Below are positions 2,571-24,438 of a stretch of DNA of 64,000 nt, piece after piece. This stretch comes from an uncultured Pseudomonadales bacterium. Its GTDB lineage: Bacteria > Pseudomonadota > Gammaproteobacteria > Pseudomonadales > Azotimanducaceae. The notes below the pieces were generated by a model that searched no databases, was not told where the DNA came from, and saw only the letters and a program-made list of their open reading frames with translations. The number at the start of each line of letters is the position of its first letter. The stretch's first letter is position 1. Both the position numbers and the translations under genes were made by a program. The stretch lies in assembly GCA_958296195.1 (NCBI GenBank), contig OY282455.1, positions 186,001 through 250,000 of the forward strand. The letters run 5' to 3'.

Positions 2571-2600
2571 TTGACACGGCGAACAAGGAGTGGGAAAAAT
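2571..2600 (+). promoter_or_regulatory. Likely sigma70-type promoter of the left precursor gene
   Basis: A perfect TTGACA lies at 2571-2576. After 17-18 bp comes an A-rich hexamer (GAAAAA or AAAAAT) as a weak -10. The small precursor gene starts about 40 bp further on. The hexamer starts immediately after the IS target duplication, so the insertion left the promoter in place but replaced everything upstream of it. Confidence 0.45.
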
Positions 2601-2639
2601 GGCGTCAAGCTCAAGATCCATTGAATTTGGAGGCAAGAG

Positions 2640-2828
2640 ATGGAGGCAGGAGATGCCGGATCACCCCCCCCCCCCCCCGGAATAGGTGAGTTGGCGGCTG
2701 AGGGGCCGAAGGAGAAGCGCCCTTGGTCAAAGCCGAGGATTATTCCCTTGCACCGGATGGCGCGAACTAACTCCGGCGCATTTGTGCAGTCGCATGAGAA
2801 CGAGGAACCGTCCTATCGCCCATCCTGA
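2640..2828 (+). CDS. RiPP-type precursor peptide, left arm (lasso-like leader, poly-C switch)
   Basis: This 62-residue ORF begins at ATG 2640 with GGAGG at 2629-2633. It has five prolines from a C15 tract, then a leader with E-K-R-P-W-S-K-P. That motif resembles the aromatic-x-x-Pro-x-hydrophobic recognition motif of lasso leaders. Counting Trp as 0, it has Ser16-Gly17, Glu24, Glu26, Glu27, Pro28, Tyr30-Arg31 and a C-terminal Ser33. Nearly the same fixed positions recur in the right-arm peptides. A second start, ATG 2653 with its own GGAGG at 2642-2646, is in another frame and would take over if the tract gained one C. A G1-E8 or S1-E9 ring is formally possible. A sulfotransferase, oxygenase and asparagine-synthetase-like enzyme follow directly. 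That it is a precursor is inferred from motif and context. Confidence 0.65.
   Translation: MEAGDAGSPPPPPGIGELAAEGPKEKRPWSKPRIIPLHRMARTNSGAFVQSHENEEPSYRPS
2664..2678 (+). repeat. Poly-C tract (15 C) at the start of the left precursor
   Basis: Fifteen consecutive C residues lie 24 nt after ATG 2640 and 11 nt after ATG 2653. With 15 C the first start reads into the precursor frame. With 16 C the second would. With 17 C both hit early stops. Such tracts are typical slipped-strand phase-variation sites; the length may also suffer from sequencing error. Confidence 0.85.
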
Positions 2829-2929
2829 GCTGCTTTCCCTTTGATCCGCTAGATGTGCGGCCTAGATGTTGCCTGTGCTTGGCGTTGCGCGGCAACTTCA
2901 TCAAATTTTGAACTAGGCTGGGCTGTCCT

Positions 2930-3778
2930 ATGCCGGCTTCGGCGGCTGTGACCTGTTATGGGGCCACCCACGATGTGGCGCACAGGGTAACGACACACCT
3001 GTTCCTGATTGCGCCAAACAACAGCGGCAGCACGTTTCTGCGCACCGCGCTGGCGACCAGTCGGCAAACATGGAACCTGCTTGGGGAAGGCCGCACGGCG
3101 CTTGGCTACGGAGGGCCGGACCCTGCGAATGACCGCCGATTGACCGGCTCCAACCGCATCCCAGCGTCCCGGTCGCAATGGCTTGAGGTCTTGTCAGACC
3201 CGGAAGCCTATGACTGGCCGCGCACCTGCAAGGCATGGTACTTCCAGGCGTGGGCGCACGCTCCTCGGGCGTCGGTGTTCGTCACCAACCTGCATCCGTT
3301 CATTGTCGGCGAACTGGCCCGGCACTTCCGCAACGCAAGATTCCTGTTCCTGGTCCGCAACCCCTACGCGCTATGCGAGGGGATTTGCAGGGCGCTGCGC
3401 CGCCGGATGCAGCGCAACCAGCCTGTGGCAGTTGCCGGCGAGCGGCTGGAGACCGCGGCGGCGCTGCATGTGGCGGCAAGCCTGGAGCAGCAGCGGTGCA
3501 ACATGGAGAGCTACGGCGCACAGGGCCTGTGCTTCACCTACGAGACGCTGTGCGCCGAGCCGGAGCGGGTGGCGCAAACCATCCGGGATCTGGTTCCGCA
3601 AATCGACGACCTCAACCTGCGGCAACGCTTGTCGGTCAAGGGCAGGTACAACGCCGTGCTCACTGACATGAACGCTCGGCAAATATCCCGCCTTGATGCC
3701 GGGCAGGTTGCGCTGTGCAACCGGGTGTTCCGACGGCATGGGAACGCATTCGACCATTTCGGCTATGACCTCCTATGA
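2930..3778 (+). CDS. Sulfotransferase family protein (left arm, first)
   Basis: This 282-residue protein carries the PAPS-binding motifs of the sulfotransferase family. The 5'-phosphosulfate loop P-N-N-S-G-S-T-F-L is at about 29-37. The 3'-phosphate motif F-L-F-L-V-R-N-P-Y is at about 138-146. It ends in the H-F-G-Y-D-L-L block shared with the other sulfotransferases of the island. Its TGA stop overlaps the ATG of the next oxygenase gene by 4 nt, so the two are probably translationally coupled. It lies 101 bp behind the precursor gene. The natural acceptor is unknown; the precursor Tyr flanked by acidic residues, or a sugar added by the GT8 enzyme, are plausible targets. Confidence 0.85.
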   Translation: MPASAAVTCYGATHDVAHRVTTHLFLIAPNNSGSTFLRTALATSRQTWNLLGEGRTALGYGGPDPANDRRLTGSNRIPASRSQWLEVLSDPEAYDWPRTCKAWYFQAWAHAPRASVFVTNLHPFIVGELARHFRNARFLFLVRNPYALCEGICRALRRRMQRNQPVAVAGERLETAAALHVAASLEQQRCNMESYGAQGLCFTYETLCAEPERVAQTIRDLVPQIDDLNLRQRLSVKGRYNAVLTDMNARQISRLDAGQVALCNRVFRRHGNAFDHFGYDLL

Positions 3779-4644
3779 CAAGTTCGATTTGGCTGCGCCC
3801 TGAGGTGCGACATGCGCTGCTGGGCACAGGAGGTCTCCATGCTCAGGCTGCTGCGGCCTTGCAGCGACGCACGCTTGACGCCGACGCATTGCGGCAGCTC
3901 GGAGACATCGAGCGGGGGAACGGTCGTTTTACGGCCGCACATCAGACTTATCGGCGCTTGTGTACACTCCGCCCTAGCGACCCTTGCGCCTCTTGGCTAT
4001 GCGCGATCACCGGCGGCCACCGTTTGCCGGCGCCGCCAACGGGCGTTCGGGCGGCGCCGTTCGTGCAGATCCCGAACTTCCTGACCTCCGCAGAGGGAGA
4101 ACACTTGTTGTCCTGGGCGCAGAACGCGCACGGACGCTTCGCACCGGCGAAGGTGGGGCCAAGTGGAAAGCACCGAGTTGACATCTCCGAACGCCGCGGA
4201 TTGGCGGCGCCTCCCAAAGCCTGCAAAGACATTGGCGCATGGCTCGTCCCGAAGGTGCGCGCCGTGCTGCCGACCGTCTCGGCGCGGCTGCGGCTGCAGG
4301 GTTTCGATAACTGCCGGATCGTCCCGGCGGCGGTGGCGTATCTCAACGGGGGCTACGGCCGCCCGCATTGCGATCCGCCACCCCTTGTCGGCAACTGCTA
4401 TTTTCATGCGCAGCCGCGCCGCTTCTCCGGTGGCGACTTGTTGCTCTACGATACGGAAGTCGGGACGGGGGACGTCGATGCCTGCGCGTTCTCGCGGGTC
4501 GAGCCGGCCGCCAACAGCATCGTCTTCCATCCCGGCGCCTATGCGCATGAGATCACTCGCGTGGTCTGCGGGACAGACCGCTTCACGGACGCAAGGTTCG
4601 CCATGACCTGCACAATCTGGCCGAATGGCGGCGCAGGAACGTAG
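3775..4644 (+). CDS. TPR-2OG-Fe(II) oxygenase (left arm)
   Basis: The 289-residue protein has an N-terminal TPR-like helical pair (residues ~20-80, with A-L-R-Q-L-G-D-I-E-R-G-N-G-R). A PKHD-type oxygenase domain follows. Iron ligands are visible as H198-C-D200 and H258 in Y-A-H-E-I-T; R274 in D-A-R-F is the likely 2OG-binding Arg. The R-R-F-S-G-G-D-L-L-L-Y-D block is shared with the right-arm oxygenases. The ATG at 3775 overlaps the preceding stop. In the family these enzymes hydroxylate peptidyl residues; the peptide here is inferred. The A-S-W-L-C-A segment between TPR and catalytic domain is also present in the kinase fusion at 16239-18134. Confidence 0.85.
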   Translation: MTSSIWLRPEVRHALLGTGGLHAQAAAALQRRTLDADALRQLGDIERGNGRFTAAHQTYRRLCTLRPSDPCASWLCAITGGHRLPAPPTGVRAAPFVQIPNFLTSAEGEHLLSWAQNAHGRFAPAKVGPSGKHRVDISERRGLAAPPKACKDIGAWLVPKVRAVLPTVSARLRLQGFDNCRIVPAAVAYLNGGYGRPHCDPPPLVGNCYFHAQPRRFSGGDLLLYDTEVGTGDVDACAFSRVEPAANSIVFHPGAYAHEITRVVCGTDRFTDARFAMTCTIWPNGGAGT

Positions 4645-4698
4645 CGGCGCCCGCCGGCCGCAGGTTTGCTGCAAATCCATTGGGATGGAGAGGCCGAC

Positions 4699-6606
4699 AT
4701 GACGTCAATCATCTGCGGCTGTCTCGGCGGTGCGGCGGCCGGAGAAGCGGTGGCGGCCATGTTCGCGGTGCATGCCGGCGATGGTCGAGCAGACGAGGCG
4801 CACTGGACGGACGGAGCGGTCGCCCTTGGCGTACGCAGCACCTCCGTGCCCGATTCGTCGTTGCGCATGCATCAGGAGAGCGGAGTCGCCGTCGCTGCGG
4901 CCGCTCGCCTTGACGACCGCGAGGGGTTATGTGACCTGCTGAACATCCGCCATGCCGAGCGGCCCGGCCTCGCCGACGCCGATCTTGTCCTCCGCGCCTA
5001 CATGCGCTGGGGCCGGCTCTGTCCGGAACGGCTGCTTGGCGACTTCGCCTTCGCCGTGTGGGACAGTCGGCGGCGCACGCTGTTCTGCGCCCGCGACCCC
5101 ATCGGCGTCCGGCCGTTCTACTACGCACGGATGCCGACGGTCTTTGTTTTCGGCGGCACCGTCGATGCGGTAGTCGCCGCACCCGGTGTCCCCGATGCGC
5201 TTGATGAGGTAGGCGTGGCGGCTTTTCTAACGCGCAGCGCCATGTTGGGGACAAGGGGGATAAACCGCACCCGGACATTGTTCAAGGCGGTGCGCAAGCT
5301 GCCGCCCGGCCATGCGCTCACCGTCAAGGTGGGGACCGAGGACGCATCGGCTGTGCTTGGGCGCATTCGAACGAAACTGGAGCGGCACTGGCGCCCGGAG
5401 CAGGCGCCCTTAGCGCGGCCCGCTGCGGATGAAGACTACGCGGAGCAGTTTCTGGAGCTCTACGAGCGAGCGGTGCGGGACCGCCTGCACGGCCCGGATC
5501 CGGTGGGTGTGCATCTGAGTGGAGGCTTGGACTCGTCGAGCATCGCGGCGCTCGCCGCCCGTGCATTGCGGCGCGAGGGCCGCCCGCCGCCGCTTGCCTT
5601 CAGCTGGCTGCCAGTGCCGGGCCGCACACCTCCCGATGAGCGCCATGCGTCAGAGTACGACCTCATCCACGACCTCTGCGCCCGCGAAGGGCTGCAAGTA
5701 CACCACAGGTCACCCAGCCCGGAAGACGTTGCCGCTGTCCTTCAGCGTGACGGAGCCTATCCAGGTGTGCAGATCCATCTCAACGAGGAGGCCGTGCAAC
5801 GTTGCGCTGCGGCCCAAGGGGTACGGGTGCTGCTGTCGGGCTGGGGCGGGGATGAAGGCATTTCGTTCAACGGCCGTGGATACAACGCATATTTGCTCTT
5901 GAGCGGGCGGTGGCGGACGCTCCACGCCATCTGCCGAGCGCAAGGTGGAAGCCCGCTCAGGTTTTTGGCGGATGTGCTGGCCCCGTTGCTGCATCCACGC
6001 CTGCCATTCCATCTGCTGCGTCGCCGTCCTTTGTGGGGGCCGCGTTCGCACCGGGCGCTTGAGCGTCGGCGCTGGCTCATCAACCCGGCGTTCGCACGGC
6101 GGGTAAGGCCCCCGCCGCATCGATTTTTTCGCCAAGTGAGCTTAAGGCGCACACAGTTGCGGATTATGCAGGATGGGAGGCTGGACGACCGCATTGAGGG
6201 CTGGGCGGCGAGCGGTTTGCGCCACGGCGTCGAATACCGCTATCCGCTGCTGGACCGCCGGGTGCTGGAGTTTGCGCTGGGCCTGCCGCCGGATCAGTAT
6301 CGGCGAGGACCTTGGGGCCGTTGGCTGATGCGTTATGCGTTGTCCCTGCCCGGCGGCGCCGTCCTGCCGGATGGGATCTGCTGGAATCGGAGCAAAGACG
6401 ACCCGATCAGGTACGAATCGTTGATGGATTCCTTTGCCGAGTCGCTGCCCATCGTTCGACGGCGGATTGAGGCGCTGGCCGGGATGCCGTCACGCGCCCG
6501 GTACGTTGACCTGCCGCGCCTCCTCGCCCGCCTGGACGCGGACCGCTTCCGGTCCAAGCGTCACTTTGCCGCCATCAGCAATGCCCTGATGCTGCTCGAC
6601 TTCTAA
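4699..6606 (+). CDS. Asparagine-synthetase-like enzyme, lasso-cyclase type (left arm)
   Basis: I start this protein at ATG 4699 (M-T-S-I-I-C-G), giving 635 residues; an upstream ATG at 4666 is less likely because the paralogue begins M-S-A-I-C-G. The N-terminal class-II amidotransferase-like domain (1-~200) has the conserved R-L-D-D-R-E, L-L-G-D-F-A-F-A-V-W-D and A-R-D-P-I-G-V-R-P blocks. It lacks the nucleophilic Cys at position 2. The synthetase domain has the PP-loop S-G-G-L-D-S-S at about 274-280. This fits the macrolactam-forming C proteins of lasso clusters, which adenylate an Asp or Glu side chain. Amidation is an alternative. It sits between an oxygenase and a sulfotransferase gene. 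Confidence 0.8.
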   Translation: MTSIICGCLGGAAAGEAVAAMFAVHAGDGRADEAHWTDGAVALGVRSTSVPDSSLRMHQESGVAVAAAARLDDREGLCDLLNIRHAERPGLADADLVLRAYMRWGRLCPERLLGDFAFAVWDSRRRTLFCARDPIGVRPFYYARMPTVFVFGGTVDAVVAAPGVPDALDEVGVAAFLTRSAMLGTRGINRTRTLFKAVRKLPPGHALTVKVGTEDASAVLGRIRTKLERHWRPEQAPLARPAADEDYAEQFLELYERAVRDRLHGPDPVGVHLSGGLDSSSIAALAARALRREGRPPPLAFSWLPVPGRTPPDERHASEYDLIHDLCAREGLQVHHRSPSPEDVAAVLQRDGAYPGVQIHLNEEAVQRCAAAQGVRVLLSGWGGDEGISFNGRGYNAYLLLSGRWRTLHAICRAQGGSPLRFLADVLAPLLHPRLPFHLLRRRPLWGPRSHRALERRRWLINPAFARRVRPPPHRFFRQVSLRRTQLRIMQDGRLDDRIEGWAASGLRHGVEYRYPLLDRRVLEFALGLPPDQYRRGPWGRWLMRYALSLPGGAVLPDGICWNRSKDDPIRYESLMDSFAESLPIVRRRIEALAGMPSRARYVDLPRLLARLDADRFRSKRHFAAISNALMLLDF

Positions 6607-6608
6607 AG

Positions 6609-7529
6609 ATGGTGGCCGCAATGCGCACCATGCAATCGCATCTCGCCGGTCGGAGCTTCGCTGTCATCGGCGACAACGCCCTGCACTATGGCGCTACCTG
6701 CGACGTGGCGCAGGCCGTGACGACCCATCTGTTCGGAATCTGTCCGAACAACAGCGGCTCCACCTTCCTGCAAAAGGCGCTGGCGACCTGCCGCGCCACC
6801 TGGAACCTCCCCGTGGAGGGTCAGCGCATGACGGGTTTCGTTGGGCCGGTCAACTTTCAGCCGCTCGACCCCGGCGACCCGCCGCCCGGCCTTTTCTGGG
6901 CCGCCGGGCGCCGCTGGCTCGAGCGGTTCGCGGACCCTGCGGCGTACAACTGGAGGCGCTCCCGCGTTGCGTGGTATTTCCAAGCCTACGCCCGTGACCC
7001 TGCGGCATCGGTTTTCTACACCAAGTCGCCACCGCATCTGGTGATCGTGGATGAGCTCGTGCGGCACTTCCGCAACGCGAAGTTCCTGTTCATGGTGCGC
7101 AACCCCTACGCGGTTTGCGAGGGCATCTTGCGGTGCTACCGGCGCTACCGACCCCACGAGCTTGCGGCTTTGGCGGCCCTCTTTCCGGAACGAACCTTGG
7201 ATGAGCTTGCCGCCACTCATGCCGTCACTTGTTTGGCGTGGCAACGCCGCAATGTCGAAAAGCACGGCCACCGCGGGACGTTCTTCACCTACGAGACAAT
7301 GTGCGCCGAGCCGGAGCGGGTGGCGTATGCTGTGCGCACCTTGGTGCCGGAAATCGACGATCTGAACCTTCGGCAACAGTTGCCGGTGAAGGGTCGCTAT
7401 TGCGAGACGCTCAATGACATGAACGCTCGGCAGATCGCCCGCCTTGACGCCCGGCGGATCGTGGCGTTCTCGCACGTCTTCCGACGGCATCGAGACGTGC
7501 TCGACCACTTCGGATACGACCTCCTGTGA
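6609..7529 (+). CDS. Sulfotransferase family protein (left arm, second)
   Basis: The 306-residue protein repeats the family signatures. The phosphosulfate loop P-N-N-S-G-S-T-F-L is at about 46-54, followed by F-L-F-M-V-R-N-P-Y-A-V-C-E-G. The last 60 residues (V-K-G-R-Y to F-G-Y-D-L-L) are very like those of the first sulfotransferase. It starts 2 bp after the asparagine-synthetase-like gene, and its TGA overlaps the GTG of the glycosyltransferase. A second start at ATG 6621 is possible. Two related sulfotransferases in one arm suggest two acceptor sites, or recent duplication. Confidence 0.85.
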   Translation: MVAAMRTMQSHLAGRSFAVIGDNALHYGATCDVAQAVTTHLFGICPNNSGSTFLQKALATCRATWNLPVEGQRMTGFVGPVNFQPLDPGDPPPGLFWAAGRRWLERFADPAAYNWRRSRVAWYFQAYARDPAASVFYTKSPPHLVIVDELVRHFRNAKFLFMVRNPYAVCEGILRCYRRYRPHELAALAALFPERTLDELAATHAVTCLAWQRRNVEKHGHRGTFFTYETMCAEPERVAYAVRTLVPEIDDLNLRQQLPVKGRYCETLNDMNARQIARLDARRIVAFSHVFRRHRDVLDHFGYDLL

Positions 7530-8506
7530 CCGCGAACGTCTGCCTGGTCACCGCCGTTACGGATGACTTTTTGCCTGGCGCCATCGCCATGCTGGGCTCG
7601 TTTCGAAGTCATCATCCCGGATTCGACGGTGATGTGATCGTCCTTCACGATGGCCTGACCGAAGAGTCGTGCGCGGTGCTCGAAGCGGTGGCGCCGCTTG
7701 TGCGGTTCCAGCCGGTCGCGCCGGAACTGCTCGACCGAGTGGCGCATCTCAAGGCGGCTTACCCAAGCCGACCCATTCTCCCGCCCATGTTCCATGCGCT
7801 GGACGCGTTTCGCCTGGACGGCTATCGCAAGGTGCTGTACTACGACAGCGACATGCTGTTCCTCGCGCCGGTTGACGAACTGTTCGACACCGACGAAGCG
7901 CTGCTGTGCTGCGGCGACCGACAGTTCGTCCTGAACCGGCAGCGCGACCCCGACACCGGTCTCGCGCTGCAAGGGCGCACGGATCGACCGGTCTTGGAGC
8001 GTCCCTTCAACTGCGGCTTCATGCTCATTGACGGCGCCTGCGCCGGTCCGCGAGTGTATGCGGATTTGCTGGCGCTGATGGTGCCGGAGGTGTGGCGCAA
8101 CTTGAATATCCGGCTTACGGATCAACCCATCGTAAACCGTTGCTTCGCGGGCCGTCAGACGCTGACGAGCTGGACTTACAACTATTTCGTGCCCGAGGCG
8201 GCGGAGGTGCGGGAGCGCACCGGCCTCAACGCCGAGCTTGCAAAGGTGCTGCATTTCAAGGGGCCAGTGAAGCCTTGGACGCCGGATGCGATGCTGCGCT
8301 GGGCGCATGGTGGCGCCGAACTCACGTATCGAACGCCAGCCAAGCTCTTCAAGCTCTGGTACGAGGCTTACTTGGAAGTCTTGGAGAAACTGCATCTGCG
8401 GATGGCGTATCCGGCGCTAGCGAAAGGGCCGAAACCACCAAGCCGCGTCCAACAGCTTGCAGAGCCTTCTCAACTAGACCGATATGAGATCGGTGGTCGG
8501 GATTGA
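7526..8506 (+). CDS. GT8-like glycosyltransferase (left arm)
   Basis: The 326-residue protein has the fold signature of GT8 glycosyltransferases. It begins with V-C-L-V-T-A-V-T-D-D-F. The metal-binding D-S-D is at 107-109 in K-V-L-Y-Y-D-S-D-M-L-F. The C-terminal K-V-L-H-F-K-G block holds the second metal ligand. It starts at GTG 7526, overlapping the sulfotransferase stop by 4 nt. It is paralogous to 15332-16249 and to the fragment at 1-216. It probably transfers a hexose or related sugar from a nucleotide sugar; the acceptor could be a hydroxylated or Ser/Tyr residue of the precursor. It closes the left-arm operon. Confidence 0.85.
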   Translation: MTANVCLVTAVTDDFLPGAIAMLGSFRSHHPGFDGDVIVLHDGLTEESCAVLEAVAPLVRFQPVAPELLDRVAHLKAAYPSRPILPPMFHALDAFRLDGYRKVLYYDSDMLFLAPVDELFDTDEALLCCGDRQFVLNRQRDPDTGLALQGRTDRPVLERPFNCGFMLIDGACAGPRVYADLLALMVPEVWRNLNIRLTDQPIVNRCFAGRQTLTSWTYNYFVPEAAEVRERTGLNAELAKVLHFKGPVKPWTPDAMLRWAHGGAELTYRTPAKLFKLWYEAYLEVLEKLHLRMAYPALAKGPKPPSRVQQLAEPSQLDRYEIGGRD

Positions 8507-8622
8507 GGAGTTTGCGGACGGCGCGATCGCTTGCATTCAAGCGAGCAGCTAGAACGACCTTGGTGGCCGGCTTCAGGCTCGAAAGCTAAGGGCCGGAGGC
8601 GCAATTGGGCTATGATGCGGCC

Positions 8623-10328: not shown

Positions 10329-10405
10329 GGTTTTGGACAGTGGCCTTGTATAAAGACCCAAAGCAAGGCAATCTACGGAAAGGGAAGCTAAACAGCATAA
10401 ACGTC

Positions 10406-10639
10406 ATGAACGAGTCAATTATTACGTCAAGGGGTCAAACTACGCTGCCGAAGGCGGTCCGCGCCGCCTTGGGCGTGGGTGCGGGCGAGCGAATTCGCTA
10501 TGTCGTTCTGGACAACGAAGTCCACATCCTTCCAGTTCGGCCGCTCAAGTCCCTGTTTGGCGCCTTGCGGCACGATGGCCCGCCCGTGCCTCTTGAAGAC
10601 ATGGAGCGGGCCATCGCCGAAGGTGCCCGCGACCTGTGA
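10406..10639 (+). CDS. AbrB/VapB-type antitoxin
   Basis: I place the start at ATG 10406 (M-N-E-S-I-I-T-S-R-G-Q), giving 77 residues. The N-terminus I-T-S-R-G-Q-T-T-L-P-K-A-V-R-A-A-L-G-V is the swapped-hairpin DNA-binding motif of the AbrB/MazE family. The C-terminal part (L-E-D-M-E-R-A-I-A-E-G-A) is the typical toxin-binding tail. Its TGA overlaps the toxin start by 4 nt. Such pairs autorepress their own promoter. Confidence 0.85.
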   Translation: MNESIITSRGQTTLPKAVRAALGVGAGERIRYVVLDNEVHILPVRPLKSLFGALRHDGPPVPLEDMERAIAEGARDL

Positions 10640-16249: not shown

Positions 16250-18134
16250 CGACGGGGCGCGTCAACACATAGCCGGTCACCGAGAAGCGTCCGGCGCCGA
16301 AGTCGTCGGGGTCGCCCTCCACCAGCGTGACCTCGTGGACGCAGCGGCTGGGGAACAGGACGATGCTGTTGTCCAACGGCTCGATGCGAGTGAAGGTGTT
16401 CGCCACCTCGCCGTCGTGCAGCAGCAGATCCCCTCCCCTGAAGGGCTTGGGCTGGCGATGCAGGTAGTACAAGCAGTTGATCCGCCGCACTTCGTATTCT
16501 CCCATCGCTTGGCGCCCGTCGCTGTGGGCGGCGAAGAATCCCCCGGCAGGATACACGCTCGCCCGCACCTCGAAGTGGCGTTCTCCAAGATCGGCCATCC
16601 CCAACCTCGGCAGCGCGTTGGCCACGAGCCGGCGCAGCCTCGGCTCGAAACCAGGCTGCACCTCGTCGACAATCCGGGCGTTGGCCACAAAGGAATGTCG
16701 CGCACTCTCATTGATGTATCCGGAGTCGACCCCCGCCAGCCCGCTGAAGTGCTCCCGGCCGGCCAGCAGCAGGGCCAGCAGCGCCTGGTGCTCGTCGGGG
16801 GGCAGGAAGTTGCGCACCCGCACGAAGGGCGCCGGCCAAACGGCCTGCGCCGGCGGAGGCTCCGGCAGGTCCGCGCCGCCCAGGACGGCGCACAGCCAGG
16901 ACGCCTTCGGGTGCCCGGGGCGCAGCTCGGCGACGCGGCGGCAGGCGTCGAGGGCGGCCTCCAGGCGCCCCTCGCCCCGATGCAGGTCGCCCAGCCGCAG
17001 CAGCGCCTCCGGGTCGTCCGGGCGGGCGGCGAGCCGGCGCCGCAGCGCCGCCTCGGCCTGTTCGAACAGGCCACCCCTGCTCTGAAGTGCGCCGGTCACC
17101 GCCCGCCGCCGCGCAACAGCCTTTTCCGGTGCGCTTTCCCAAAGGCTCCTCTCCGTGGCGGGGGTTTCCGGCGGCGGCAGCGGCGGCCGGTGCGCCCCGG
17201 CCTCCGACCGCAGATGCGCCGCAATGCGCTCCGCCAGCGCCTGGAGCTGGAACGACCGGGCCGGACGCCTGACGTGAAAGACCGACACCTGCGCCGCCAT
17301 CCGATCGATGGTGCGAAAGTGCTCCTCTTGCCGCCCAAGGTCGTGCAGAAACCGCTTCCGGTAGGTGTGCAGCAGCAGCGCCTCGCGAGCCTGGGCCCAA
17401 GAAGCCGGCTGGATTTCGATGCCGGCCCGGTCGTGCGGCTCCAGCACGTAGACGGCCCGCACGGCCAGCGGCTCGGCACGCAGCCGCGCCGCCGGCAGCA
17501 GATGCTTTTCGCTCTCCCCCTGCACTTTCCCAAGCGTCCGCGGCGGCTGGCCCAAGGCCTCCAGGGAGTCGGCCCGCAATCGTGTGCAGGTGGAGGCGGG
17601 CAACGCCAGGAAGCGACCGTCGGCGTTCGCCTCGATGCCGGTGAGGCCGTCGCTCAGCAGGGCGCAGCCGCGCTCGGCCAGCGCACCGACCAGGGATGAC
17701 TTGCCGGCGCCTTTGAAGCCCACGAACAGCGCCGCGCCGATTTCGGTCTCGACCGCGCCGGCGTGGAGGGTGGTCAGGCCGCGTTGCTGCAGCAGCGCGG
17801 CGAACGGCGAGCCGAGCAGGAACGCCCCCATGTCCCGTTCGTCGTCGCCCAGCGGTTCGACCAGAACGTTGCATCCGTCCGTGACCAGATAGCGGGCCAC
17901 GTCGTCCACCGTCATCAGAAAGGCGCCCGGCGCGGCCTCCCATCGGCGGTGCTTCCCGATGGGGTTCGGGAGCTGCGCCGGCGTCGCGCCGATGCGCACG
18001 GTGACGTCCGCGCCCGTCCGCTTCTCCGCGCCCCCGCGCTCCGCCGCCGAACGCCCTTCGTCCAGGGGCGGCGCGGAACGAAAAGGCAGCGCGAGGGCGG
18101 AGCGGATGCGCAGCCCGTAGGCGGTGTAGTCCAT
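16239..18134 (-). CDS. HprK-like kinase fused to a TPR-2OG-Fe(II) oxygenase
   Basis: From ATG 18134 the protein has 631 residues. Residues 1-~320 match the HprK-related kinases of lasso clusters: an N-terminal Y-G-L-R-I-R-S-A-L, L-H-A-G-A-V before the Walker A G-F-K-G-A-G-K-S-S (about 139-147), L-L-S-D-G as a degenerate DD motif, and H-T-Y-R-K-R-F-L later. A Pro-rich linker and a TPR pair (~340-410) follow. The last ~200 residues are an oxygenase with H537-S-D539, H600 and R616. In the paeninodin family the free-standing kinase phosphorylates the C-terminal Ser of the peptide; the precursors here also end in Ser. I know no established kinase-hydroxylase fusion of this kind. It follows the precursor triplication on the same strand. 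Confidence 0.8.
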   Translation of the reverse strand: MDYTAYGLRIRSALALPFRSAPPLDEGRSAAERGGAEKRTGADVTVRIGATPAQLPNPIGKHRRWEAAPGAFLMTVDDVARYLVTDGCNVLVEPLGDDERDMGAFLLGSPFAALLQQRGLTTLHAGAVETEIGAALFVGFKGAGKSSLVGALAERGCALLSDGLTGIEANADGRFLALPASTCTRLRADSLEALGQPPRTLGKVQGESEKHLLPAARLRAEPLAVRAVYVLEPHDRAGIEIQPASWAQAREALLLHTYRKRFLHDLGRQEEHFRTIDRMAAQVSVFHVRRPARSFQLQALAERIAAHLRSEAGAHRPPLPPPETPATERSLWESAPEKAVARRRAVTGALQSRGGLFEQAEAALRRRLAARPDDPEALLRLGDLHRGEGRLEAALDACRRVAELRPGHPKASWLCAVLGGADLPEPPPAQAVWPAPFVRVRNFLPPDEHQALLALLLAGREHFSGLAGVDSGYINESARHSFVANARIVDEVQPGFEPRLRRLVANALPRLGMADLGERHFEVRASVYPAGGFFAAHSDGRQAMGEYEVRRINCLYYLHRQPKPFRGGDLLLHDGEVANTFTRIEPLDNSIVLFPSRCVHEVTLVEGDPDDFGAGRFSVTGYVLTRPVDGC

Positions 18135-18201
18135 CTGCAATTGGTCCGTTCAGGCTTGGGCGCCTCGTCCAACGGACGGCGCACCCTCACAACTGGGCTG
18201 C

Positions 18202-18391: not shown

Positions 18392-18576
18392 TCAGGAAAC
18401 AATATCCCGGTATTTCGGGTCTTCAGGTGAGCCGGGGGCGGCCTTAGGGCCGCTGCCGGCTATGTTGGCGTAGGTCATTTTGCGCACGGTGGGTTTGCTC
18501 CAGGCGCGCTTGACCTTGGCGGACGGGCGCTGGTCATCCGTTTCTCGGGGGGGGGGGGGGGGGTCTCATGCTGCAT
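18392..18576 (-). pseudogene. Precursor peptide copy 1, phase OFF
   Basis: The sequence equals copies 2 and 3 except that the tract has 17 C. From ATG 18576 the frame leaves the precursor reading after the prolines and stops near 18475. From ATG 18569 it is also out of frame. In the precursor frame a TGA lies just before the tract, so no start can rescue it. The coding part for leader and core is otherwise undamaged, so a change of one or two C would restore it. I record it as a phase-OFF gene rather than a decayed one. Confidence 0.7.
18547..18563 (-). repeat. Poly-C tract of precursor copy 1 (17)
   Basis: There are 17 C on the - strand, 2 mod 3, which gives the OFF state for both start codons. 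Confidence 0.85.
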
Positions 18577-18694: not shown

Positions 18695-19126
18695 CTATTC
18701 CACCTGTTCGCTGGCGCCTTGCGTTTCCGTGTGCGGGTCCGGGCGGAACGGCGCAACGCCTGCCTTGTGAATCCAGCCGTTCACAGTGAAGCGCCCATCC
18801 TGGAATGCATCGGAGCGGCAGGTTACAGGGAGTATCTCGTGGTAGCAACCGCTGGGGAAGAAAACGATGGTGTTGCCGACAGGCTCTATGCGCGAACAGA
18901 CGGCGCGGCGAAAGCTCCCTGATTCCGGACAGGTGTCATACAGCAGCAGGTCGCCGCCGTCGAATCGCCTAGGTTCTTGATGGAAATAGTAAGCGTAGCT
19001 GATCTCTCGAGTGGCGAGCGGCGAGTCGGCTGAATCGGTCGAATCGTCGGAATGCGGCCCGAAGAATCCACCAGTGAGATGCGCCGTCACTTCCACCTCG
19101 ATGAAACGCTTGCCCGGTTCTCCATT
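18695..19126 (-). pseudogene. Truncated TPR-oxygenase, catalytic half (unit 1)
   Basis: This is the 3' part of the oxygenase at 20205-21164, cut at the codons for G-E-P-G-K-R-F by the tandem duplication. It keeps H-S-D, the distal His in C-Y-H-E-I and the Arg in G-R-F-T-V. The entire iron site is therefore present, but the TPR half is missing. A GTG near 19096 could start a 133-residue catalytic fragment. Without evidence of translation I call it a duplication remnant. Confidence 0.75.
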
Positions 19127-19147: not shown

Positions 19148-19321
19148 TCAGGAAACAATATCCCGGTATTTCGGGTCTTCAGGTGAGCCGGGGGCGGCCT
19201 TAGGGCCGCTGCCGGCTATGTTGGCGTAGGTCATTTTGCGCACGGTGGGTTTGCTCCAGGCGCGCTTGACCTTGGCGGACGGGCGCTGGTCATCCGTTTC
19301 TCGGGGGGGGGGGGGTCTCAT
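19148..19321 (-). CDS. RiPP-type precursor peptide copy 2 (ON through the second start)
   Basis: With 13 C the frame is open from ATG 19321 (M-R-P-P-P-P-R-E-T), giving 57 residues. AGGAG lies 7 bp upstream of this ATG. The leader has V-K-R-A-W-S-K-P-T-V. Counting Trp as 0, Ser16-Gly17, Glu26-Asp27, Pro28 and Tyr30-Arg31 coincide with the left-arm peptide in an ungapped alignment, and the peptide ends in Ser35. No acidic residue falls at ring positions 7-9 after Gly17, so a classical lasso ring is not evident; Gly17 to Glu26 would be a ten-residue macrolactam. It lies between a truncated oxygenase and the next repeat unit. Function as a precursor is inferred. Confidence 0.65.
   Translation of the reverse strand: MRPPPPRETDDQRPSAKVKRAWSKPTVRKMTYANIAGSGPKAAPGSPEDPKYRDIVS
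19303..19315 (-). repeat. Poly-C tract of precursor copy 2 (13)
   Basis: There are 13 C on the - strand, 1 mod 3, which puts ATG 19321 in the precursor frame. Confidence 0.85.
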
Positions 19322-19446: not shown

Positions 19447-19878
19447 CTATTCCACCTGTTCGCTGGCGCCTTGCGTTTCCGTGTGCGGGTCCGGGCGGAA
19501 CGGCGCAACGCCTGCCTTGTGAATCCAGCCGTTCACAGTGAAGCGCCCATCCTGGAATGCATCGGAGCGGCAGGTTACAGGGAGTATCTCGTGGTAGCAA
19601 CCGCTGGGGAAGAAAACGATGGTGTTGCCGACAGGCTCTATGCGCGAACAGACGGCGCGGCGAAAGCTCCCTGATTCCGGACAGGTGTCATACAGCAGCA
19701 GGTCGCCGCCGTCGAATCGCCTAGGTTCTTGATGGAAATAGTAAGCGTAGCTGATCTCTCGAGTGGCGAGCGGCGAGTCGGCTGAATCGGTCGAATCGTC
19801 GGAATGCGGCCCGAAGAATCCACCAGTGAGATGCGCCGTCACTTCCACCTCGATGAAACGCTTGCCCGGTTCTCCATT
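19447..19878 (-). pseudogene. Truncated TPR-oxygenase, catalytic half (unit 2)
   Basis: This appears identical to the fragment at 18695-19126. It has the same breakpoint, joined to the bases after the stop of precursor copy 3. The iron-binding residues are intact; the TPR half is absent. Confidence 0.75.
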
Positions 19879-19899
19879 TCCGCACCAACTGCCATGGCC

Positions 19900-20079
19900 T
19901 CAGGAAACAATATCCCGGTATTTCGGGTCTTCAGGTGAGCCGGGGGCGGCCTTAGGGCCGCTGCCGGCTATGTTGGCGTAGGTCATTTTGCGCACGGTGG
20001 GTTTGCTCCAGGCGCGCTTGACCTTGGCGGACGGGCGCTGGTCATCCGTTTCTCGGGGGGGGGGGGGGGGGGGTCTCAT
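19900..20079 (-). CDS. RiPP-type precursor peptide copy 3 (ON through the second start)
   Basis: With 19 C the frame is open from ATG 20079, giving 59 residues with six prolines and otherwise the same peptide as copy 2. The gene lies about 120 bp behind the stop of the intact TPR-oxygenase. It is therefore the copy in the original position; copies 2 and 1 are its downstream duplicates. Upstream of the start, TTGCAT and TATGGT hexamers separated by 17 bp could serve as its own promoter, repeated in every unit. The poly-Pro segment varies with the tract and is probably not functional as such. Confidence 0.65.
   Translation of the reverse strand: MRPPPPPPRETDDQRPSAKVKRAWSKPTVRKMTYANIAGSGPKAAPGSPEDPKYRDIVS
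20055..20073 (-). repeat. Poly-C tract of precursor copy 3 (19)
   Basis: There are 19 C on the - strand, 1 mod 3, which puts ATG 20079 in the precursor frame. This is the longest tract in the window. Confidence 0.85.
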
Positions 20080-20204
20080 GCTGCATCTCCTGACTCCGGT
20101 TGTCGTAAAGGATTTGGGAAGTCCAACCATACTGATTGGCGGTTCGCCATGCAATAGGTCCACCAGACCGCCACGATACGGCGCCAGCTACCCGCATCGC
20201 CAGG

Positions 20205-21164
20205 CTATTCCACCTGTTCGCTGGCGCCTTGCGTTTCCGTGTGCGGGTCCGGGCGGAACGGCGCAACGCCTGCCTTGTGAATCCAGCCGTTCACAGTGAA
20301 GCGCCCATCCTGGAATGCATCGGAGCGGCAGGTTACAGGGAGTATCTCGTGGTAGCAACCGCTGGGGAAGAAAACGATGGTGTTGCCGACAGGCTCTATG
20401 CGCGAACAGACGGCGCGGCGAAAGCTCCCTGATTCCGGACAGGTGTCATACAGCAGCAGGTCGCCGCCGTCGAATCGCCTAGGTTCTTGATGGAAATAGT
20501 AAGCGTAGCTGATCTCTCGAGTGGCGAGCGGCGAGTCGGCTGAATCGGTCGAATCGTCGGAATGCGGCCCGAAGAATCCACCAGTGAGATGCGCCGTCAC
20601 TTCCACCTCGATGAAACGCTTGCCCGGTTCTCCATTATGGAAGTGCGCAGCGAGGCGCGGCAGCAGGCACTGCAGCTTCGGGACGAACCAACGACGAATC
20701 TCCCGAATGACCGACCTGTCCGCGAGCAGCGCGTTGCGCAGTTCACGGCGCAACTGCCGTTTTTTTTTATCGGGGTAAATCCTGGCTGGAACAAAGGTCT
20801 TGGGGTCGGCATGCGTCACCGCGAGGAGGCGCTCCTGCTGCGCCGCGTTGAGGAAGTTCTCTATGCGGATGAACGGCGAGGGCCGAACGCCCTCGGGCGC
20901 AGGCCATGGCAACCGCTCGCCGCTTGCCACAGCGACCAGCCAGTTCGTCATCGCATCGCATCGCAGGTGCTGCAGTACACGATAGGTTTTCAGCGCCGCG
21001 CCGAATTCGCCCCGCCGGCGCTGCAAGTCGCCAAGCCCGCGCAGGGCCCGTGCGTCGTGCGGATTCTCGGCCAGTTTGCTCCGGAGCGCTGCTTCGGCCT
21101 GGTTCAGCAGGTCCGGGCTGATGAGCGCGCACGTTATGGCGGTTGACCTTGCAAGCTCAGACAT
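20205..21164 (-). CDS. TPR-2OG-Fe(II) oxygenase (right arm)
   Basis: From ATG 21164 (M-S-E-L-A-R-S) the protein has 319 residues. A TPR pair occupies about 20-75 (N-Q-A-E-A-A-L-R-S-K-L, A-L-R-G-L-G-D-L). The PKHD-type catalytic domain has H201-S-D203, H272 in C-Y-H-E-I-L and R288 in G-R-F-T-V-N. It resembles the left-arm enzyme at 3775-4644 in domain order and in the R-R-F-D-G-G-D-L-L-L-Y-D block. Its start overlaps the preceding gene by 8 bp. The 3' half was co-duplicated with the precursor gene. Hydroxylation of the precursor is a reasonable inference; residue and position are unknown. Confidence 0.85.
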   Translation of the reverse strand: MSELARSTAITCALISPDLLNQAEAALRSKLAENPHDARALRGLGDLQRRRGEFGAALKTYRVLQHLRCDAMTNWLVAVASGERLPWPAPEGVRPSPFIRIENFLNAAQQERLLAVTHADPKTFVPARIYPDKKKRQLRRELRNALLADRSVIREIRRWFVPKLQCLLPRLAAHFHNGEPGKRFIEVEVTAHLTGGFFGPHSDDSTDSADSPLATREISYAYYFHQEPRRFDGGDLLLYDTCPESGSFRRAVCSRIEPVGNTIVFFPSGCYHEILPVTCRSDAFQDGRFTVNGWIHKAGVAPFRPDPHTETQGASEQVE

Positions 21165-22095
21165 TTTGCATCCCCTCAACGCGGCGGGCGCTCCGAGGCG
21201 TTTGCGCGTGGCCCAACAGCACCCTGCCGCGGCCGCAAGGCGCTGCCCATGCGAGCTGGCGTCGCTCTTGCGCCGGGAACGCGATGCCGTCGCCCGGCGC
21301 CAGGGCCACCGGATCCTGTGCATTGAAGGTAAGTGTGAGCTTGCCATCGAGCGGCACCAGCAACAGGGCGTCGTCGTCCTCCGCCTCGGTTTGCATCGTT
21401 TGCGCAAGGCGGTCGCAGAGGGCCAGTTCCAGCGATGCGCTCGGGGGCACCGCAAGCCGCGCCAGCTCCGAACAACGTTCCAGCAGATCGGCCTCGACAG
21501 CCAGGCGACCTTTCGTGCCTTTGCGCAACTTGGCGCTGGCTTTTTGATCAAGGAACGCTCGCCACAGTACCGCCGGCGCCCGCCAATGCAGCAGCAGCTG
21601 AATCGCTTGCGTACCCAGGAATGCATCACGCCAGTGGCGCCGCCACCGGCCGTCGAAGATCAGTGCCGTGCCAGGCTGGCTGGCCCACTCGAACACGCTC
21701 CCATCCGGCTGCCGCATGCTTACGGGCCACGCATCCACGCCGTCAAGAACGACGGGAATGCTCATCGTGATGTCCAGCGGCGACCGATCGATGTGCCTGT
21801 CCATACGGGCGCAGGGATCGAACCGCCACAAGAAAGAGTTGACGAAAACACAGGTCGGCCGGCTTAGCAACGCACCCATTCGCGCTGCCATCCCTTGGCC
21901 AAGAAACTGGCCTACCGGCGGGTCGAAAAAGTGGGCTGTGCGGGTGTCGACGCCGGCGCTTAGCAGCTCGCCAAAGAGCGTCATATCCTGCTTCACGCAG
22001 GTGCGCAGAAAGTCCAACGAGAGGTTGAAGTCCTTGAGATCCGCGGCCCAAGGAAGTTCCCGCGGCTTGGCCCGAGTTCGGACGTTCAAAGTCAT
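21157..22095 (-). CDS. Putative 2OG-Fe(II)-type oxygenase of unknown subfamily
   Basis: I do not recognise a close family for this 312-residue protein. Residues R-M-D-R-H101-I-D103-R-S and, about 50 residues on, F-D-G-R-W-R-R-H154-W-R156 have the order and spacing of a double-stranded beta-helix iron site. The final third (L-L-V-P-L-D-G-K-L-T-L, then L-A-P-G-D-G-I-A-F-P) reads like a second, cupin-like barrel. It is translated just ahead of, and overlaps, the TPR-oxygenase. No left-arm counterpart is visible in the window. Its position makes it a tailoring enzyme candidate. Confidence 0.5.
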   Translation of the reverse strand: MTLNVRTRAKPRELPWAADLKDFNLSLDFLRTCVKQDMTLFGELLSAGVDTRTAHFFDPPVGQFLGQGMAARMGALLSRPTCVFVNSFLWRFDPCARMDRHIDRSPLDITMSIPVVLDGVDAWPVSMRQPDGSVFEWASQPGTALIFDGRWRRHWRDAFLGTQAIQLLLHWRAPAVLWRAFLDQKASAKLRKGTKGRLAVEADLLERCSELARLAVPPSASLELALCDRLAQTMQTEAEDDDALLLVPLDGKLTLTFNAQDPVALAPGDGIAFPAQERRQLAWAAPCGRGRVLLGHAQTPRSARRVEGMQNV

Positions 22096-22099
22096 GCCT

Positions 22100-22274
22100 C
22101 GGATACCCCGTAGCTGCGCGAAGCCGGCGCCGAAGTCGGTGGGGTCGCACTCCAGCAGCGTAACCTCGTGGACGCAGCGGCCGGGGAACGGGACGATGCT
22201 GTTGTCCTGCGGCTCGACGCGGCACTCCCCAAGGACCGGTCGTCCGTTTCTCGGGAGGGGGTCTCATGCTGCAT
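22100..22274 (-). pseudogene. Precursor 5' end joined to an oxygenase 3' end (recombination relic)
   Basis: The first ~45 bp equal the start of the right-arm precursors (M-Q-H-E-T, then R-E-T-D-D), with the C tract interrupted as CCCCCTCCC. The sequence then switches to a stretch which, in another frame, reads R-V-E-P-Q-D-N-S-I-V-P-F-P and C-V-H-E-V-T-L-L. That corresponds to the C-terminus of the kinase-oxygenase fusion. Precursor leader, core and most of the kinase gene are lost. It shows that a precursor once lay ahead of a kinase-oxygenase gene here as well. Confidence 0.7.
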
Positions 22275-22382
22275 CTCCTGACTCCAGTTGCCGCAAACGG
22301 TTCGGGAAGTCCAACGTTATTTCATTGGCGGCTCGCCATGCAACTAGGGTTGAGGCGCCGGCGAAGGGCTGTAATGCGGCCA

Positions 22383-22588
22383 TGAGCGTCCCCGACAACG
22401 GCGCCGCCTGCCTGTTTCGGATTCACGAGTCGCTTGAGCACCGGGCGCTTCCGGTGGAGGGAACGGCTCCAAGGTGCGTTTACGGGGGGTGGTTCCGCGC
22501 TGGGGGCACCGACTATCGGGAGACGCTGCGGCAGCGACTGCATCCTCTTGAGGATCAAACTGGTTTGCCGCCGCAGCCTTCCGGCTGA
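22383..22588 (+). pseudogene. Chimera of ATPase 5' end and oxygenase 3' end
   Basis: The upstream region and first codons (M-S-V-P-D-N-G) are those of the DUF1703-type ATPases. After about 8 codons the reading continues as C-L-F-R-I-H-E-S-L-E-H-R, the C-terminal part of the M-I-Q-L oxygenase at 26696-27358. The frame stays open for 68 residues, but the product lacks the iron ligands and any ATPase motif. It is adjacent to the asparagine-synthetase-like gene in tail-to-tail orientation, exactly as the oxygenase at 27358 is to the relic at 27362. Confidence 0.7.
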
Positions 22589-24438
22589 ATTTGGAAATCC
22601 AGGAACTGCAGGGCGTTATGAATGGGCGCAAGCTGCGGGTCCGCCCGAAATCGATCCGCGTCCAGGCGTTCAAGCAGGCGCGGCATGTCGATGTATCGGG
22701 CCCGAGGTGGCGCGGCGCGGGCGGCGAGCTCGCGGCGCACCGTCGGCAGCGCTTCGGCGAAGGCGTCGATCATGGCCTCCACCCGGGCCGGGTCGGCTTT
22801 GACCTGATTCCAGCAGACTTCAGGGGGGAGCACCGGGTCGAACGTGTGGCGCATCAGCCAGCGGCCCCTCTGTCCGTGCCGGAACTGCTCGGGCGGCAGC
22901 CCCAGGACGAACTCCAGCAGCCGGCGGTCCAGCAGCGGATAGTGGTACTCGATGCCCCGGGCGGCGCCGCTCGCCGCCCAGCCCTCCAGGCGTTCGCTCA
23001 AATGCCCACCGCGCAGCCGCCGCAACTGCGCGCGCCGCGCACCGACCTCTCGAAAAGTCCCCAGGCGCAAGGGCTTCACCTCCCGCCGGAACGCGGGCGC
23101 GATGAGCCAGCGCCGACGATCCGGCTCCTTGCCCCGCCACCATCGTCTGACGGCCCGATGCAGGTGCGGATGCGCCAGCAGCAGCGCAACTTGGGCCATA
23201 TACATGAGCGGACGATCCCTGCGCGAGCGCACATCGGCGAGCAACCTGAGCCAGCGCCCGGTGAGCAGCAGTTGCTCGGGATAGCCCTGAAAGCCGTTGA
23301 ACGACACGCCTTCGTCCCCGCCCCAACCCGACAGCAGCGTGCGTACGCCCAGCTCCTCGGCGCGGCGCTGCACCGCCTCCTCGTTGAGGTGGACCTGCAC
23401 GCCCGGCAAGGCCCCGTCGCGGCGCAGCATGGCGAACATGTCGTCGGGACTCGGTGCGCAGTGGTGGATGCGCAGTTCCTCCCGCCGGGCCACGGCGTCA
23501 ACAAGGGTGTACTCCGGCGCATGCTCCGCGTTGGGCGCCCCGCCGCCGAGGTCCGGCAGCCATGTAAAGGCGGGCGGCGCCGAACGCCCCTGGCGGCGCA
23601 ACTCCCGGGCCGCCAGCGCCGCGACCCCGGATGAGTCCAGCCCGCCGCTCAAATGCACCCCCACCGGGCCGGTGCCGCGCAGGCGGTCCCGCACCGCCTT
23701 GGCGCACAGCTCCAGGCACTCCTCCGCGTAGGCGTCGTCGGAGGCCGGCCGAACCTTCGGCGCGTTTTCCGGGCGCCAATGGCGCTCGATCCGAAGGCGG
23801 CCCTCCCCGGTTGCGGTCAGCGCATGGCCCGGCGGCAGCTTGCGCACCGCCGCGAAGAAGGTGCGCGTGGTCGGGCCACAGTTGATGCGGGTCAGGTGCG
23901 CCGCCACGAACGCCTCGTCGAGTTGGCCGGAAACGCCGGGCGCGGCCAGCACGGCCGGCACCGCGCTGGCGAAGACGAAGCGCTCCCCAGTCTGGGCGTA
24001 ATAGAAAGGCCTGGCGCCGATGTGGTCCCGGGCGCAAAACAGGGTGCGCTGGCGCGCGTCCCACAAGGCGAAGGCGTAGTCGCCGAGCAGGCGGTTCGGG
24101 CAGTCCCGCCCCCAGCGCCGGTAGGCGCGCAGAATGAGTTCGCCGTCGGCAACGCCGGCTTCGCGGCAGCCTAGTGCGCCGCGGAGCGACTCCCGGTCGT
24201 CAAGCCGCGCGTCCGCGGCCAGCGTGAGGCCGGCCTCGCGGCAGCGGTGCAGCTGCACCGCCCCGGGCCGCTGCGCCGGGGCTGGCTTTTCCGGGAAGGG
24301 GTGCCGCCGCCCGAGGCTGACCGGCCCATCGCTCCATTCCGCACGGTCCGCCCCGTAGTCAGCGAGGGCGTCCAGCATGGCACCCGCATCCGAGCCCAAT
24401 CCCGGCCGGCGGCAGAGCATTCCGCAGATTGCGCTCAT
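22555..24438 (-). CDS. Asparagine-synthetase-like enzyme, lasso-cyclase type (right arm)
   Basis: The 627-residue protein starts at ATG 24438 (M-S-A-I-C-G-M-L) and parallels the left-arm enzyme throughout. It has R-L-D-D-R-E and L-L-G-D-Y-A-F-A-L-W-D in the amidotransferase-like domain, then the PP-loop H-L-S-G-G-L-D-S-S near residue 262 and S-G-W-G-G-D-E-G-V-S-F-N later. Cys sits at position 5, not 2, so glutamine hydrolysis is doubtful and direct ring closure or another acyl-adenylate reaction is more likely. The gap downstream contains only relics before the next oxygenase gene. Its last 200 bp are duplicated as a relic at 27362-27570. Confidence 0.8.
   Translation of the reverse strand: MSAICGMLCRRPGLGSDAGAMLDALADYGADRAEWSDGPVSLGRRHPFPEKPAPAQRPGAVQLHRCREAGLTLAADARLDDRESLRGALGCREAGVADGELILRAYRRWGRDCPNRLLGDYAFALWDARQRTLFCARDHIGARPFYYAQTGERFVFASAVPAVLAAPGVSGQLDEAFVAAHLTRINCGPTTRTFFAAVRKLPPGHALTATGEGRLRIERHWRPENAPKVRPASDDAYAEECLELCAKAVRDRLRGTGPVGVHLSGGLDSSGVAALAARELRRQGRSAPPAFTWLPDLGGGAPNAEHAPEYTLVDAVARREELRIHHCAPSPDDMFAMLRRDGALPGVQVHLNEEAVQRRAEELGVRTLLSGWGGDEGVSFNGFQGYPEQLLLTGRWLRLLADVRSRRDRPLMYMAQVALLLAHPHLHRAVRRWWRGKEPDRRRWLIAPAFRREVKPLRLGTFREVGARRAQLRRLRGGHLSERLEGWAASGAARGIEYHYPLLDRRLLEFVLGLPPEQFRHGQRGRWLMRHTFDPVLPPEVCWNQVKADPARVEAMIDAFAEALPTVRRELAARAAPPRARYIDMPRLLERLDADRFRADPQLAPIHNALQFLDFQIQPEGCGGKPV

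Follow-up and report, generated by a model that had tools for sequence, protein, structure and literature searches.

Precursor-like ORFs and poly-C runs in the window

The 64,000-nucleotide stretch analyzed here (the window) belongs to a single contig of 4,311,735 bases (OY282455.1) from an uncultured Pseudomonadales bacterium. It contains small open reading frames (ORFs) that resemble precursors of lasso-type peptides, which are ribosomally synthesized and post-translationally modified peptides (RiPPs), together with genes for lasso-type and peptide-tailoring enzymes. An initial annotation had described this region as a two-armed island; the description was apt locally, but similar genes extended to the left of the window. 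A scan for homopolymers placed a run of cytosines (C) near the start of each precursor ORF, as listed below.

2640..2828, plus strand, left precursor (62 amino acids), read in frame when started at the ATG at 2640 and out of frame when started at another ATG 13 bases further along
2664..2678, plus strand, C15 run inside the left precursor
18392..18569, minus strand, third right-hand precursor copy, with a C17 run and out of frame from its ATG
18547..18563, minus strand, C17 run (G on the plus strand) in the third right-hand copy
19148..19321, minus strand, second right-hand precursor copy, in frame
19303..19315, minus strand, C13 run in the second right-hand copy
19900..20079, minus strand, first right-hand precursor copy, in frame
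20055..20073, minus strand, C19 run in the first right-hand copy

The translations bore out the coordinates that the initial annotation had given for the left peptide and for the two in-frame right-hand peptides. The gapless match that it had reported between the two arms was verified position by position. Specifically, counting the Trp as 0, the peptides shared K-R at -3/-2, W-S-K-P at 0 to 3, an aliphatic residue at 5, S16-G17, E26, an acidic residue at 27, P28, Y30-R31, and a Ser as the last residue. The two right-hand peptides were copies that differed solely in their number of prolines, so the second one provided no independent evidence. The further copy at 18392-18569 had been overlooked because it is out of frame. 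The right-hand tandem repeat unit included the 3' end of the adjoining hydroxylase gene in addition to the precursor, and 739 bases between the runs were identical across the three tandem copies. The run lengths were unequal; thus, the runs were the part in which the tandem copies differed.

The four runs (15, 17, 13, and 19 bases) were the only C or G runs of at least 8 bases in the window. Overlapping C8 matches numbered 36, compared to a mean of 8.0 and a maximum of 17 in 100 shuffles.

A dispersed family of run-bearing precursors

The initial annotation had suggested that further small ORFs of this kind be sought genome-wide, and they were found. A profile built from 14 precursor ORFs matched 26 places in the genome at E values of ≤1 and 24 places at E values of ≤0.01 among the best 150 of 183 candidates. 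The matches comprised 17 ORFs with poly-C runs and 7 without, and three of the 7 contained an internal stop. Because ORFs were picked by a W-x-K-P pattern, which partly preserved these residues, the invariance of W, K, and P was not counted as independent evidence; the later profile search did not depend on the pattern. A Tyr near the precursor end was conserved in an acidic context, and a terminal Ser was present in 46 of 56 unique precursors.

The genome contained 43 poly-C runs of at least 10 bases. Eighteen of these fell in the 17 ORFs of the precursor family (one ORF held two runs), where 0.03 were expected given ORFs of about 190 bases. This corresponded to an enrichment of about 560-fold. 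The runs were 11 to 33 C in length, and none was more than about 30 bases away from a candidate start codon. In all cases, C was on the coding strand, but this was built into the design of the test, and strand uniformity was therefore not counted. A duplicated 2.5-kb stretch (L071 and L078) was 99.5% identical between its copies, and the runs measured 25 and 33 bases; in L078, the GT8 (glycosyltransferase family 8) and sulfotransferase genes were frameshifted. The initial annotation had missed more than it saw: the precursors are spread over the whole genome as one family, and phase variation is suggested by their poly-C runs together with the mixture of reading frames.

Precursors and runs in other genomes

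Searches of other genomes scored the best ≤32 candidates per genome within the taxonomic family and the best ≤18 within the class, so absences from these searches carry little weight. At E values of ≤0.01, precursors were found in 5 of 206 genomes of the same family (the source genome included), representing 3 of 37 genera. No match was found in the eight genomes of the same genus (best ≤32 candidates per genome), and in the class-wide sample of 369 genomes (best ≤18 candidates per genome), the one match was the source genome itself. The enrichment of runs in precursors was seen again in G189, a relative from another genus: 16 of its 43 runs lay within 15 precursor ORFs, and, counted by run, 9 were in frame and 7 were out. 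Precursors carried 2 of 14 runs in G188 and 1 of 6 runs in G205. The run contexts L134 to L153 of draft relatives, which were partly contig ends or beside stretches of N, were excluded from the counts.

A scan of other records for the sulfotransferase yielded 35 loci, some of them overlapping. A nearby precursor match (E ≤ 0.001) was present at 24 of these loci, and the precursor carried a run of at least 8 bases at 10 of the 24. One of the 24 (L189) came from a record titled Gemmatimonadetes. The initial annotation had named a lack of conservation of the small ORFs elsewhere as the outcome that would speak against it; instead, other genomes paired the small ORFs with the same enzymes.

Additional runs were noted outside the precursor family. 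In genomes of the taxonomic family (genera g2 and g3), poly-C runs were located directly or shortly behind the ATG of other genes (L142 and L145), and run-based switching may therefore be wider than the precursors. A 45-C run was located at position 487 of L182 (record OY282353.1).

Reading frames and phase variation

Read from the candidate ATG, 8 of the 17 run-bearing precursors were in frame and 9 were out of frame. A simple repeat placed so as to shift the reading frame, as in a phase-variable contingency locus, was found in all 17 genes. The only length differences seen were those between duplicate copies within one genome, and there the lengths were changing fast. Based on the sequences, the precursors are probably phase variable through slippage of the poly-C runs.

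Support for coding came from the conservation of Glu and Tyr in distant members and from third bases that varied at the invariant Pro and Tyr. All 17 ORFs were open downstream of their runs, and the Glu and Tyr were found in every aligned row, including the out-of-frame members. The ratio of nonsynonymous to synonymous substitutions (dN/dS) was dropped as support for coding because close pairs gave values of the corresponding ratio of polymorphisms (pN/pS) near 1.

Several observations weighed against slippage-switched precursors. Most of the genome's poly-C runs (25 of 43) were situated outside the precursor family, and several relatives had more than 50 runs yet no precursor match (e.g., 114 runs in G181 and 192 in G191). 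Homologues in other genomes often had no run, so the run is not essential. The choice of start codon was ambiguous in several precursor genes, and in 8 of the 17 an in-frame ATG, GTG, or TTG lay between the run and the Trp (an ATG in two), which means that an out-of-frame precursor may not be silent. Close pairs gave no indication of purifying selection; the pN/pS was 0.96 in the leader and 1.06 in the core (12 pairs). In addition, switching was read off assembled genomes, in which homopolymer lengths are error-prone. The precursors P0001 and P0002 had no match in NCBIfam, lasso precursor leader models included, at E values of ≤0.1, nor did any Pfam family match them at E values of ≤0.001.

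Much of this would be expected if the precursors were real and the runs neutral, that is, if the lineage tolerated poly-C expansion, the extra leader prolines were harmless, and the out-of-frame copies were dead or started later. The runs outside the family, the run-rich relatives lacking it, the homologues without runs, the later in-frame starts, and the pN/pS of about 1 all fit this idea. We nevertheless consider it unlikely, given that the strong enrichment in precursors was repeated in another genus and that the 17 downstream ORFs, out-of-frame ones included, were open and retained the Glu and Tyr. Codon use also argues against it: at the invariant Pro, codons were mostly CCG (39 of 59), whereas the runs were unbroken CCC, a difference that fits a run that is kept or young rather than a selected poly-proline stretch.

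A second explanation is that the recorded run lengths stem from errors in the assembly or consensus and that every gene is in frame in the cell. To our knowledge, homopolymers of 11 to 33 bases are difficult for every sequencing method, and the duplicate region L078 was frameshifted in its GT8 and sulfotransferase copies as well. Such errors cannot account for long runs at the same position in 17 different genes or for their recurrence in other assemblies, and long runs would be slippery even if their recorded lengths were wrong. We therefore regard this explanation as very improbable, and slippage-switched precursors remain the reading that we prefer.

Lasso-type enzymes

Lasso leaders carry an aromatic-x-x-Pro motif, and maturation involves a leader-binding B1 protein, a B2 protease, and a cyclase (C protein). 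Pfam and NCBIfam scans found neither B1 nor B2 inside the window, which contained two cyclase genes, one in each arm.

4666..6606, plus strand, lasso-type cyclase (C protein); PF00733, 2.2e-31; NF033535, 6.9e-91, below cut-off; the first Met giving a normal N terminus is at 4699
22555..24438, minus strand, lasso-type cyclase (C protein); PF00733, 9.3e-34; NF033535, 1e-99, below cut-off

Elsewhere in the genome, one B2 protease (Transglut_core3 type) scored above the NF033537 cut-off (C1:1215807-1216178, region L075). Its neighbors were the gene for an NTP_transf_5 protein and a cassette in which a run-bearing precursor is accompanied by genes for GT8, a sulfotransferase, and an HprK-like kinase, and a nucleotidyltransferase was again next to B2 in the relatives' five B2 regions. 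A B2 was found in 6 of the 10 genomes searched, including all five with the precursor family; G204 had two, and G003, which had no precursor match, had one. Five PF05402 matches above cut-off indicated PqqD-type B1 proteins in the genome. One was directly upstream of a cyclase gene (L081), two were in paired related clusters (L198), and another was at C1:681577. The Asn synthase matches in the genome comprised one high-scoring match, ten near full-length lower-scoring matches, and six fragments. Region L075 also encoded a TonB receptor and a large TolB/amidohydrolase-type protein (14644-17907) with a weak lasso isopeptidase match (68.6 bits; cut-off, 400). The two tandem lasso-type clusters of L198 contained B1, oxygenase, cyclase, and TPR-hydroxylase genes and a W-x-x-P small ORF, and parts of them appeared truncated.

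In the precursors, a candidate N-terminal Gly of the core was followed by an acidic residue at a spacing of 7 to 9 in 41 of the 56 unique sequences (maximum of 28 in 500 shuffles). A spacing of 10 was found in part of the remainder.

The proposal of lasso-like RiPP precursors with extra tailoring, made in the initial annotation, thus gained support from a B2 that exceeded its cut-off, from B1 proteins of the PqqD type, and from cyclases that were closest to lasso enzymes. On the other side, although the best NCBIfam model for the cyclases was the lasso isopeptide cyclase NF033535, their scores (335 and 306 bits) fell below its curated cut-off of 525. A search of solved structures with the cyclase returned Asn-synthetase-type chains and no lasso cyclase, and a B1 relative in G205 (60% identical) matched lasso_PqqD_Bac best, scoring 65 bits where the cut-off is 80.

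It is conceivable that the same enzymes modify the precursors but that the product is something other than a threaded lasso, for example, a branched macrolactam or a linear peptide bearing sulfate and phosphate groups, with the B2 and the L198 clusters serving other substrates. The single B2 far from the window, the absence of B1 from the window, the ring spacing of 10 in part of the family, and the low cyclase scores would all fit such a product. The prevalent spacing of 7 to 9 and the presence of B2 in all five family genomes, and beside a run-bearing precursor in this one, point the other way, and we think that a nonlasso product is improbable.

Tailoring enzymes

Pfam placed sulfotransferases, GT8 enzymes, Asn-synthetase-like proteins, and 2-oxoglutarate (2OG) oxygenases in both arms, in agreement with the enzyme classes of the initial annotation. 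The tailoring genes of the window, including two oxygenase genes outside the region that had been described, were as follows.

253..939, plus strand, 2OG-Fe(II) oxygenase, outside the described region; PF13640, 2.4e-07, above cut-off; relatives adjoin B1 in the L198 clusters
2930..3778, plus strand, sulfotransferase; Sulfotransfer_3, PF13469, 1.3e-09
3775..4644, plus strand, TPR-type 2OG hydroxylase; Pfam TPR match only, below cut-off; H-x-D...H by alignment with other hydroxylases
6609..7529, plus strand, sulfotransferase; Sulfotransfer_3; predicted fold closest to tyrosylprotein sulfotransferases
7526..8506, plus strand, GT8 glycosyltransferase; PF01501, 1.7e-14
13557..15335, minus strand, double-length sulfotransferase with two domains in one frame; two PF13469 stretches in ORF 13557-16205; both domains align
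15332..16249, minus strand, GT8 glycosyltransferase; PF01501, 4.9e-18
16239..18140, minus strand, single ORF in which TPR and 2OG hydroxylase parts come after an HprK-like kinase domain; 2OG-FeII_Oxy_3, PF13640, 5.2e-14; TIGR04352, weak
18695..19126, minus strand, duplicated 3' piece of the hydroxylase gene (tandem unit), by sequence comparison
19447..19878, minus strand, second duplicated 3' piece of the hydroxylase gene, by sequence comparison
20205..21158, minus strand, TPR-type 2OG hydroxylase from which the duplicated pieces derive; PF13640, 2.3e-14; the listed ORF reaches 21629
21157..22095, minus strand, probable oxygenase, judged by eye, whose end is cupin-like; AraC_binding_2 match below cut-off only
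26696..27358, plus strand, 2OG-Fe(II) oxygenase, outside the described region; PF13640, 1.5e-07, above cut-off

In the genome, this sulfotransferase family had 13 near full-length members, along with three fragments and a copy that was split. In six cassettes outside the window, a precursor was followed by a GT8 gene and then a sulfotransferase gene, all in one direction (one pair was split by frameshifts). Of the 11 regions outside the window that contain run-bearing precursors, two (L072 and L079) lacked any match to a tailoring enzyme within 10 kb, which counts against the preferred reading.

The predicted model of the sulfotransferase at 6609 was closest to tyrosylprotein sulfotransferases, at about 15% identity. 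This ranking is contested by the Foldseek E value, which put the polyketide sulfotransferase CurM first, and by a search of solved structures with the sulfotransferase profile, which returned STF9, CurM, and a polyketide-synthase domain only and no tyrosylprotein sulfotransferase. The sulfotransferase might act on a sugar added by the GT8 enzyme instead of on Tyr, and the consecutive gene order in the six cassettes speaks for this. The conserved Tyr in its acidic context and the fold ranking favor Tyr, yet neither identifies the acceptor. We regard sugar sulfation as a serious, if somewhat doubtful, possibility; the conserved Tyr remains our preferred acceptor.

The initial annotation had also proposed a kinase acting on the C-terminal Ser. 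The frequent terminal Ser agreed with this, but the kinase likeness of the ORF at 16239 was weak (TIGR04352, 1.9e-07, far below cut-off).

Poly-C runs were also noted near tailoring genes. A 24-base G run (L031; center, G000:C1:177489) preceded the start codon (ATG) of a GT8 gene (L083 10522-11394) by four bases, and, judging by this position, that enzyme may also be phase variable. In L198 (L052 and L053), a C20 run (6156-6175) and a C22 run (12107-12128) were located about 85 to 95 bases upstream of HprK-like genes. Taken together, these runs raise the possibility that tailoring switches too.

Neighboring genes

AAA-ATPase-like/PD-(D/E)XK genes (PF09820 and PF08011) recurred beside the cassettes, at 8605-10191 and 27592-29160 in the window and in L083 (12798-14354), L201 (9719-11281), and L275 (4416-6002). 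The likeness was 87 to 89% for the window and L083 copies, 73% for L201, and 94% in another genus, and these genes are possibly mobile. Between the arms (10340-11052) were two small overlapping ORFs that by eye resembled an AbrB-type antitoxin and a PIN toxin. Transposase-like genes with HTH and rve matches were located at both ends of the island (1126-2307 and 25103-26362), and a near-identical copy (97%) was beside a precursor in L079.

A proposed model for switched lasso-type peptides

The sequences themselves show the precursor family, the presence and position of the runs, the mixture of reading frames, the enzymes of the lasso type, and the recurrence in other genomes. From these features we infer slippage in living cells, the chemistry as a whole, the pairing of residues with enzymes, the lasso topology, and the function. 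We consider it likely that lasso-type peptides are made from a dispersed, slippage-switched precursor family with local tailoring.

In the proposed mechanism, the small ORFs would encode leader-bearing precursors of lasso-type (macrolactam) peptides. Slippage of the run would move the reading frame, such that an in-frame run would yield leader plus core and an out-of-frame run an early stop. The PqqD-type B1 would bind in-frame precursors via the K-x-W-x-K-P leader motif, and the leader would be cut in trans by the B2 protease, whose single clear gene in the genome lies far from most of the precursor genes. The Asn-synthetase-like cyclase would then close a ring between Gly1 and a Glu or Asp usually 7 to 9 residues on. 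Local tailoring would include a sulfotransferase, most likely acting on the conserved Tyr in its acidic context, GT8 enzymes, and 2OG hydroxylases; in regions that have an HprK-like kinase, this enzyme would act on the terminal Ser. At any one time, a cell would thus make some of its many decorated peptides, and the selection would shift.

A more ambitious version of this model, which we put forward tentatively and would not be surprised to see fail, is a combinatorial system. About 20 dispersed precursors, most of them independently switched by poly-C runs, would share one B2 and receive cassette-specific sulfation, glycosylation, hydroxylation, and phosphorylation, and each cell would make a different peptide set, perhaps directed towards a host, phages, or kin.

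If the model holds, a lasso-type RiPP repertoire would be diversified by stochastic switching and not by regulation, with a B2 serving many precursors in trans. It would offer a testable case of bet-hedging with natural products and a source of candidate sulfated, phosphorylated lasso-type peptides. With half of the precursors out of frame in the assembly, such precursors would also escape gene callers.

Comparison with known systems

The system resembles known lasso peptides in its aromatic-x-x-Pro-like leader, B2, PqqD-type B1, Asn-synthetase-like cyclase, and Gly/acid spacing of 7 to 9 in 41 of 56 precursors. It differs in having a single clear B2 for about 20 scattered precursors, ten or more near full-length genes of the cyclase type in one genome, and homopolymer runs in the precursors, and it is known from genes alone.

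A lasso peptide review (PMC8498205) describes kinases that phosphorylate the C-terminal Ser of some lasso peptides, followed by a nucleotidyltransferase that adds hexose to the phosphate, and mentions a putative sulfotransferase gene for some Firmicutes lasso clusters. The weak HprK-like kinase, the terminal Ser, and the NTP_transf_5 gene beside B2 are reminiscent of paeninodin-type and polyphosphorylated lasso clusters and of pseudomycoidin, which involves a kinase and a nucleotidyltransferase. Unlike in those systems, the kinase can occur here as a fusion with a TPR-2OG hydroxylase, there are several sulfotransferases and GT8 enzymes, and the layout is dispersed. The review also describes canucin-type hydroxylation, in which an Fe/2OG enzyme acts on the linear lasso precursor. 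The 2OG hydroxylases beside the precursors are similar in this respect, but they bear TPRs and occur several per region. The likeness to tyrosylprotein sulfotransferases is distant, as described above.

Phase-variable bacteriocin-like peptides have been reported from the nap island of Neisseria gonorrhoeae (PMC11798529), where, as here, G/C runs lie within the reading frame and both in-frame and out-of-frame alleles occur. The nap peptides are not in a lasso-type enzyme system, and here there are 17 run-bearing precursors in one genome, observed in a single assembly. An open-access literature search, with most subscription journals, all preprints, and the content of two papers that mention both lasso peptides and phase variation outside its scope, found no description of phase-variable lasso or other modified RiPP precursors. 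Compared to these systems, the chemistry appears to be of the lasso type with an unusual set of tailoring enzymes, and the new part would be the switching of many precursors.

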